From positions 62,001 through 126,000 of the forward strand of contig JANWWA010000001.1 in NCBI GenBank assembly GCA_025056565.1: a stretch of DNA of 64,000 nucleotides, read 5' to 3'. Origin of the DNA: Chloroherpetonaceae bacterium (lineage in GTDB: Bacteria; Bacteroidota; Chlorobiia; Chlorobiales; Thermochlorobacteraceae). Below the pieces are notes generated by a model. That model had not been told where the DNA came from and searched no databases. It saw nothing but the letters and a program-made list of their open reading frames with translations. Numbering within the stretch: position 1 is the first letter of the stretch; every line of letters starts with the position of its first letter. The translations under genes and the position numbers were made by a program. Shown one piece after another: positions 30,645 through 32,440 of this stretch.

Positions 30645-31070
30645 ATGGCAAAAAAAGTTGTCGGATACGTCAAACTTCAAATTCCAGCAGGACAAGCTAA
30701 CCCTGCCCCTCCTGTCGGCCCTGCTCTGGGTCAGAAGGGTGTGAACATTATGGAGTTCTGTAAGCAGTTTAATGCCCGAACCGCTTCTCAGCAGGGTCTG
30801 ATTATCCCTGTTGTGATTACGGTTTATTCCGACAAGTCCTTTACTTTCGTTACCAAAACGCCGCCCGCATCGGTTTTGCTGCTCAAAGAGGCGAAAATTG
30901 AGAAAGGCTCTGCCGAACCGAACCGCACTAAAGTTGGCAAGGTTACGCGCGCGCAGATTCGTAAAATTGCGGAAATGAAATTGCCTGACCTCAATACCAC
31001 ATCTCTTGAAGCTGCAGAGCGAATGATTGAGGGCACGGCAAGGAATATGGGCATTGTGATTGAAGGATAA
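30645..31070 (+). CDS. rplK: 50S ribosomal protein L11
   Basis: 141 aa, normal length. The N-terminal domain starts [37 protein letters not shown] and the rRNA-binding C-terminal domain ends with [13 protein letters not shown]11 forms the GTPase-associated stalk base. It is followed after 56 bp by rplA, with an L1-target-like hairpin in the gap. Confidence 0.98.
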
Positions 31071-31086
31071 CCTATCTCTTCTAACT

Positions 31087-31117
31087 GTGGGAGACGCGAA
31101 AGCGTCGCCAAAACCAC
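31087..31117 (+). promoter_or_regulatory. Candidate L1-binding autoregulatory RNA element ahead of rplA
   Basis: The rplK-rplA gap contains GTGGGAG, a GACGC/GCGTC stem capped by a GAAA tetraloop, then GCCAAAACCAC. The outer GTGG pairs with CCAC, leaving an asymmetric internal loop. Layout and sequence resemble the L1-binding helix of 23S rRNA (GGUGGGAG ... GAAAUACCACC as I recall it for E. coli). Binding of L1 here could repress rplA translation. No Shine-Dalgarno sequence is seen between the element and the ATG. Confidence 0.5.
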
Positions 31118-31126
31118 TTCTTTAAG

Positions 31127-31813
31127 ATGGCAGGAAAAAAATATCAGCAAGCGCTGGCAAAAATTGACCGTACCAAAGAGTACGATATTGCCGAGGCTGT
31201 TGCAAAAATCAAGGAAATCAGCACCACGAAGTTCGATGCTACCGTCGATATTGCAATGCGCTTAGGCGTTGACCCACGGCAAGCCGACCAAGTGGTGCGT
31301 GGCACCGTTACTTTGCCACATGGCACTGGCAAAACCGTGCGTGTCCTTGTGCTTTGCAGAGAAAACAAGCAACAAGAAGCCAAAGACGCAGGCGCAGACT
31401 ATGTTGGCTTAGCCGAGTATGTGGAGAAAATTCAAGGTGGCTGGACCGATGTTGATGTCATTATTGCTACACCTGATGTGATGGCTGAAGTTGGTAAGCT
31501 TGGTAAGGTGCTTGGGCCACGTGGCCTGATGCCAAACCCGAAATCTGGCACCGTAACGATGGACGTGGGCAAAGCCGTCCGCGAAGTCAAAGCTGGTAAA
31601 ATTGAGTTTCGGGTGGATAAAGCAGGCGTCGTGCATGCTGGCATTGGCAAGGTTTCGTTTGATGAAAAAAAACTGGCAGAAAATGTGCAAGCATTTATTA
31701 GTGCTATCGTGCGTGCTAGGCCAGCTGCCGCAAAGGGACAGTATATCAAGAGCATTTACCTTTCAAGCACGATGTCGCCGAGCATCAAAATCAAGCGCGA
31801 GGTGGCAGGATAA
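31127..31813 (+). CDS. rplA: 50S ribosomal protein L1
   Basis: 228 aa two-domain L1-stalk protein that also acts as a translational repressor of its own mRNA in many bacteria. The start [29 protein letters not shown], the hinge region and the central [16 protein letters not shown] signature are present, as is the end [13 protein letters not shown]. The ATG lacks an evident Shine-Dalgarno and sits 9 bp after the putative L1 target hairpin. rplJ follows after 20 bp. Confidence 0.98.
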
Positions 31814-31833
31814 CTTATAAACCTTGACGAGAA

Positions 31834-32361
31834 ATGAAACGACCAGAAAAAGAAAAAATCGTCGAGCAAGTTGCTGAGAAAATGAAGCGGGCGCAAGCGG
31901 TGTACTTCACTGAGTTTCAGGGTATGACTGTTGAGCAAAGCCAGGCGTTGCGTAATGAGCTAAGAAAGGCAGGCATTGAGTACAAGGTGGTAAAGAATAC
32001 GCTCATCAAGAAAGCAATTGAGCGTGCCAACCTGTCCGACAAGCTCTTTTCCGTTCTGAAGAACACGACTGCAATTGCCTTTGGATACGATGACCCGATT
32101 GCGCCTGCGAAAATCCTAAAGAAATTCTCAGAGGAAAATGACAAGCTGAAATTCAAAGGGGCATCGGTCGATGGGCAGGTCTTTGACCACACCCAGCTGG
32201 CTACGATTGCCTCTATGACGAACAAGGCGGAAAACATCGGCAAGGCTATAGGCATTATCAACCAGACTATTGCCAGCGTGCCTATGACTATCAATGCCGT
32301 TATGCGCAACTTGGTCAGCGTCTTAGACCAAATCGCCAAGCAAAAAGCCGCTAACGCGTAA
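31834..32361 (+). CDS. rplJ: 50S ribosomal protein L10
   Basis: 175 aa. The N-terminal rRNA-binding part includes AQAVYFTEFQGMTVEQSQALRNELR and VVKNTLIKKAIE; the C-terminal helix (about 145-172) binds L7/L12 dimers. It anchors the stalk that recruits translation factors. The 20-bp gap after rplA leaves no room for a classical L10 leader; control could come from upstream or from the rplJ-rplL gap. Confidence 0.97.
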   Translation: MKRPEKEKIVEQVAEKMKRAQAVYFTEFQGMTVEQSQALRNELRKAGIEYKVVKNTLIKKAIERANLSDKLFSVLKNTTAIAFGYDDPIAPAKILKKFSEENDKLKFKGASVDGQVFDHTQLATIASMTNKAENIGKAIGIINQTIASVPMTINAVMRNLVSVLDQIAKQKAANA

Positions 32362-32400
32362 GTTTATGACGGACTATTACGCACTCAATTCAATTAACCC

Positions 32401-32440
32401 TCGGCGATTGGCTTCTACTTTCGCCGAATAAAACAAGGAG
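32401..32440 (+). promoter_or_regulatory. Hairpin and strong ribosome binding site between rplJ and rplL
   Basis: A 7-bp stem TCGGCGA/TCGCCGA with a 13-nt loop (32401-32427) is followed by AAGGAGAGG (32435-32443) and the rplL ATG at 32455. L7/L12 is needed in several copies per ribosome, so a strong site and a stabilising or processing hairpin would fit. Confidence 0.45.

Follow-up and report, generated by a model that had tools for sequence, protein, structure and literature searches.

The window (the whole 64-kb stretch of DNA that was analyzed) carries an operon with the gene order secE-nusG-rplK-rplA-rplJ-rplL, and within the gap between rplK and rplA lies a short element that reads GTGGGAGACGCGAAAGCGTCGCCAAAACCAC and occupies positions 31087 to 31117. 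The genes around this element, and the parts into which it can be parsed, are as follows.

30645 to 31070, plus strand: rplK (L11), the upstream gene, an open reading frame with no L1 site found before it
31087 to 31117, plus strand: mimic of the L1-binding site between rplK and rplA, a putative autogenous operator, read directly and the sole match to the strict descriptor
31087 to 31090, plus strand: 5' arm of the outer helix, GTGG, with CCAC at 31114 to 31117 as its partner (descriptor parse)
31091 to 31092, plus strand: GA of the 5' internal loop
31093 to 31106, plus strand: inner helix GACGC/GCGTC with a GAAA cap, showing compensatory changes within the genus and across families
31107 to 31113, plus strand: 3' internal loop GCCAAAA, 7 nt
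31114 to 31117, plus strand: 3' arm of the outer helix, CCAC (descriptor parse)
31127 to 31813, plus strand: rplA (L1), an open reading frame, presumed to be both the source of the repressor and the regulated gene
31834 to 32361, plus strand: rplJ (L10), starting 20 nt past the rplA stop

The sequence-only reading had placed an L1-target-like hairpin between rplK and rplA, and we find it at exactly 31087 to 31117, bounded by the rplK stop (31070) and the rplA ATG (31127), with 9 nt between its 3' end and the ATG and the element itself covering positions -40 to -10. In the frame of an L1 site it parses as GTGG-GA-GACGC(GAAA)GCGTC-GCCAAAA-CCAC, with an outer helix of 4 bp and an inner helix of 5 bp. 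Our strict descriptor called for a 4-bp Watson-Crick outer helix with at least three G/C, followed by GA, an inner stem with G as its first base and a length of 4 bp or more, and a 3' loop of 6 to 12 nt with G first and A last. Across both strands of the 64 kb this descriptor returned one match, the element at 31087 to 31117, while 40 dinucleotide shuffles gave a mean of 1.1 sites with any outer helix and 0.0 with GTGG. No L1 site was found upstream of the window rplK, so the arrangement of an E. coli-type L11-operon leader does not apply here.

The likeness to 23S rRNA that had been read from the letters is borne out by comparison: the frame of the element recurs in H76/H77 of both E. coli and four Bacteroidota genomes. 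The E. coli 23S L1 site reads GTGGGAGGCT...AGCCGACCTTGAAATACCAC, and the 23S of the four sampled Bacteroidota genomes reads GTGGGAGAC or GTGGGAGGC, then GTC or GCC, then GAAATACCAC; rRNA was not found in the sampled Chlorobiales genomes, that of the window organism included, and the 23S references are therefore E. coli and other Bacteroidota. The base of the L1 stalk (H76/H77) and the mRNA element have in common the GTGGGAG...ACCAC frame and an inner stem starting with G. They differ in the 3' loop, which is 12 nt long in the rRNA and 7 nt in the window, and in the short tetraloop that caps the mRNA copy. A 12-nt 3' loop is also found in several mRNA sites from the same family (L004, L006, L007, and L011).

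The L1 protein encoded in the window is full length and orthologous, matches solved L1 structures (phmmer, 1.9e-87), and is 93% identical to the L1 of Candidatus Thermochlorobacter aerophilum, which places the window in that genus (order Chlorobiales, within the broadly defined Bacteroidota). We observe that its C-terminal triad is Thr-Met-Ser (STMSPS) in the Chlorobiales and Bacteroidia loci seen, including Bacteroidia without an rplA site; the triad is Thr-Met-Gly in most bacteria and in Thermus L1, where it contacts RNA, and the difference counts among the weak points of the L1 reading. With respect to translation starts, the rplA ATG had been described as lacking a Shine-Dalgarno, which holds in the window (duplex energy of +0.8 kcal/mol, versus -9.3 for nusG and -10.4 for rplL) and throughout the order, with 47 of 49 Chlorobiales rplA starts weaker than -4 kcal/mol (median, +1.0). 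The window rplK start is likewise without a Shine-Dalgarno, and one is present at 25/48 Chlorobiales rplK starts.

GTGGGAG...ACCAC is present upstream of rplA in every Chlorobiales locus examined (49/49), at a distance of 9 to 18 nt (median, 16), and an L1 site before rplK occurs in a single locus of 48 (L009, which also has the rplA site). The GA of the 5' internal loop is found in 36/36 distinct Chlorobiales sites and in 53/58 others, and the 3' loop of parsed sites begins with G and ends with A, both of which were search criteria. The outer helix, GTGG/CCAC, is invariant in Chlorobiales and is replaced by GCGG/CCGC, GTTG/CAAC, or TTGG/CCAA in more distant loci, so that compensatory changes in this helix come only from the latter and covariation supports primarily the inner helix. 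A hairpin that has nothing to do with L1 and serves termination, attenuation, or RNase processing would fit the Chlorobiaceae, in which the inner stem is followed by a terminator-like G(C)TTTTTT. We rejected that explanation, which is extremely unlikely, since the window stem is not followed by a U run and no plus-strand terminator was called in the window; moreover, the stems are just 3 to 5 bp in most relatives, and the conserved letters are those of the L1-contact frame, unlike a stem plus U run.

Covariation in relatives, on which the sequence-only reading had staked its proposal, is found, and within the genus too, with GACGC/GCGTC, GACGT/ACGTC, and GACACTG/CAGTGTC as its inner stems; the wider Chlorobiales add GATAC/GTATC, GATGG/CCATC, and GGCT/AGCC. 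In an arm-swap test (strict Watson-Crick, 4 nt), 6 of 8 distinct left arms pair with their own partner, compared with 2 of 56 swapped combinations, and when 57 distinct rows are aligned by fitting to the model, there are 20 doubly changed inner-stem cells against a shuffle mean of 4.9, with 99.7% of cells paired versus 27 to 67% when slid; both tests lean toward structure, as the sites were parsed or aligned with structure. Pairs were counted in these two ways because the right arm is misplaced in the MAFFT alignments (A1 to A3), owing to variable loop lengths. This structure bias does not touch the compensatory changes within the genus or the anchor count of 49/49. That the element is a conserved rRNA mimic no longer in use would agree with its bare RNA fold, which is unexceptional (z = -1.4), and is nevertheless highly improbable, given that the within-genus compensations and the 49/49 retention on a variable background argue for current selection.

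When the genus was left out of training (model R3), the element is the only match in the window (17.4 bits, E = 0.017). The genome-wide model search is not specific: its only reported match is a CRISPR repeat-spacer junction that has no inner stem and scores above the element. The identification therefore rests on context and conservation, since the motif is short and a chance CRISPR match scores higher. The array in question lies at L202 (contig C23, 3000 to 6000) and has the repeat ATTCTAATTGCACCAATGTGGGATTGAAAT, one junction of which is the chance match. Rfam 15 gave no match for the window element, and the L1 sites of Firmicutes are likewise unmatched, so this release seems to hold no family for the L1 operator, and annotation pipelines miss the element.

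Outside the order, L1-type sites are more scattered. Among other Bacteroidota, an rplA site is present in 5/21 loci (L032, L034, L040, L050, and L051), two of which (L050 and L051) have sites before both rplK and rplA, while L047 has one before rplK only and many Bacteroidia loci show no L1 site by the strict descriptor. In the specific case of family f19, G163, G200, and G206 have the site before rplK (recognized in these genomes by its MAKKV start), and G119 (L034) has it before rplA. Because the Bacteroidota sites vary in this way between rplA, rplK, and both, the putative L1 control point has moved between the two genes within one phylum. Many Firmicutes loci carry the same frame, GTGG-GA-stem-G...A-CCAC, placed upstream of rplA, of rplK, or of both genes.

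Judged by its sequence, the element has the features expected of a bacterial L1 operator, namely, the frame, a position in the rplA initiation region, covariation, and conservation in relatives, and we consider it very probably an rRNA-mimicking autogenous translational operator for L1. By analogy with the established behavior of L1, the protein would bind the mRNA copy when in excess over free 23S rRNA and repress its own synthesis. Bound L1 would lock or stabilize the outer helix 9 nt upstream of the ATG, inside the region covered by the 30S subunit, and this lock would block 30S loading and stop rplA initiation at a start without a Shine-Dalgarno. In the absence of L1, the outer helix is predicted to face competition from an alternative GG/CC pairing, a caveat for the L1 geometry: for the 31-mer, the fold GG(A)GACGC/GCGTC(G)CC, which does without the outer helix, comes to -11.9 kcal/mol and the L1 geometry to -11.3, making the two nearly isoenergetic. 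Since the alternative is so close in energy, the modeled folds suggest that L1 may select the closed outer-helix form.

The sequence-only reading had proposed that L1 could control its own synthesis without affecting L11, yet L11 may still respond through mRNA decay. A broader role is therefore conceivable, in which the L1 site governs the operon and repression also reaches rplJ, by translational coupling over the 20 nt that separate it from rplA, or rplK, through mRNA destabilization. The rplA-rplJ gap (31814 to 31833 here) measures 9 to 39 nt across Chlorobiales. That leaves too little space ahead of rplJ for an L10 leader of the E. coli type, which is thereby excluded, and because rplJ starts so close to the rplA stop, L10 may be coregulated with L1 by coupling. 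The absence of an L1 site before rplK in 47/48 loci also speaks for operon-wide control, as the balance of L11 must then come from elsewhere. On the other hand, rplK often has a Shine-Dalgarno of its own in relatives, and the rplJ-rplL gap holds its own conserved element, which suggests separate control points; we thus regard control of the whole operon from this site as possible, though on balance unlikely, and keep to an operator acting on rplA.

The second element comprises two features in the window.

32374 to 32386: block CTATTACGCACTC in the rplJ-rplL gap, conserved across Chlorobiales
32401 to 32427: hairpin in the rplJ-rplL gap, containing GGCTTCTA at 32410 to 32417

We observe TTACGCACTCA in the rplJ-rplL gap of 29/30 Chlorobiales loci inspected, the exception being L009 with a partial ATTACGCACAAT, and TTACGCACTCAA has one copy per genome in all six Chlorobiales genomes searched (6/6). 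Against a non-Chlorobiales 23S reference, the block is the exact reverse complement of GAGTGCGTAATAG plus TAGAAGC from the GTPase-associated center (H43/H44), in antisense order. The same block is found upstream of rplK in Ignavibacteria (L089 to L091 and L093) and upstream of rplJ in L103, L176, L190, and L191. Flavobacteriia-like genomes whose 23S has TTGGAAGC carry GCTTCCA, not GCTTCTA, in their rplK or rplJ-rplL leaders (G099, G103, G107, G114, G117, and G120), a C/T correlation of leader and 23S that is confounded by phylogeny. Furthermore, the best antisense match to 23S falls inside the GTPase-associated center for 28/112 rplJ-rplL gaps versus 0/140 rplK-rplA gaps. By the length of the longest match to 23S alone, antisense is not separable from controls for this element, and the case for it thus rests on position and conservation; it has no Rfam family match.

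From its sequence, the block is possibly a regulator acting through pairing between mRNA and rRNA. It is doubtful, though worth stating, that the Chlorobiales nusG-rplK-rplA-rplJ-rplL genes are under two rRNA-derived elements of opposite sense, the L1 mimic before rplA and the antisense TTACGCACTC...GCTTCTA before rplL, with the mRNA pairing with unassembled 23S. If true, such pairing with naked 23S would let the mRNA detect when L10, L11, and L12 run short. A AAGCTTCTGAA-like conserved stretch is also seen shortly upstream of rplK in Chlorobiaceae (L012 to L030 and L054 to L070), and this stretch may be akin to GCTTCT in the antisense element.

L1 autoregulation through rRNA mimics is established: Proteobacteria have the site upstream of L11, Actinobacteria and Cyanobacteria have it upstream of L1, and Firmicutes, Thermus, and Thermotoga have sites upstream of each of the two genes (PMC10931766). 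Of what the sequence-only reading proposed, the L1-target-like character of the element and its coverage of the initiation region of an rplA without a Shine-Dalgarno stand, and the novelty of its placement before rplA does not, this placement being known in several phyla (PMC10931766) and also seen here in Firmicutes loci. On sequence evidence, then, the Chlorobiales element is very probably a known type of L1 control, now documented across one bacterial order; a well-studied autoregulatory RNA is extended to a whole order, and the picture of L1 regulation is unchanged. In E. coli, the L11 operon has an L1 operator that is alike in being an asymmetric stem-loop that mimics rRNA, is bound by L1 there, and serves translational autoregulation, and it differs in standing before rplK and acting on both genes via coupling, whereas the site in the window stands before rplA only. 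The rplA sites of Actinobacteria and Cyanobacteria, like the two-site rplK-rplA operons known from Firmicutes, Thermus, and Thermotoga (PMC10931766), have the same element in the same placement before rplA. In contrast to these, Chlorobiales have a single site in nearly all loci and an rplA without a Shine-Dalgarno, where AAGG often comes after the site in Firmicutes, and the order offers a natural test case for an L1 operator that would act where the start codon has no Shine-Dalgarno.
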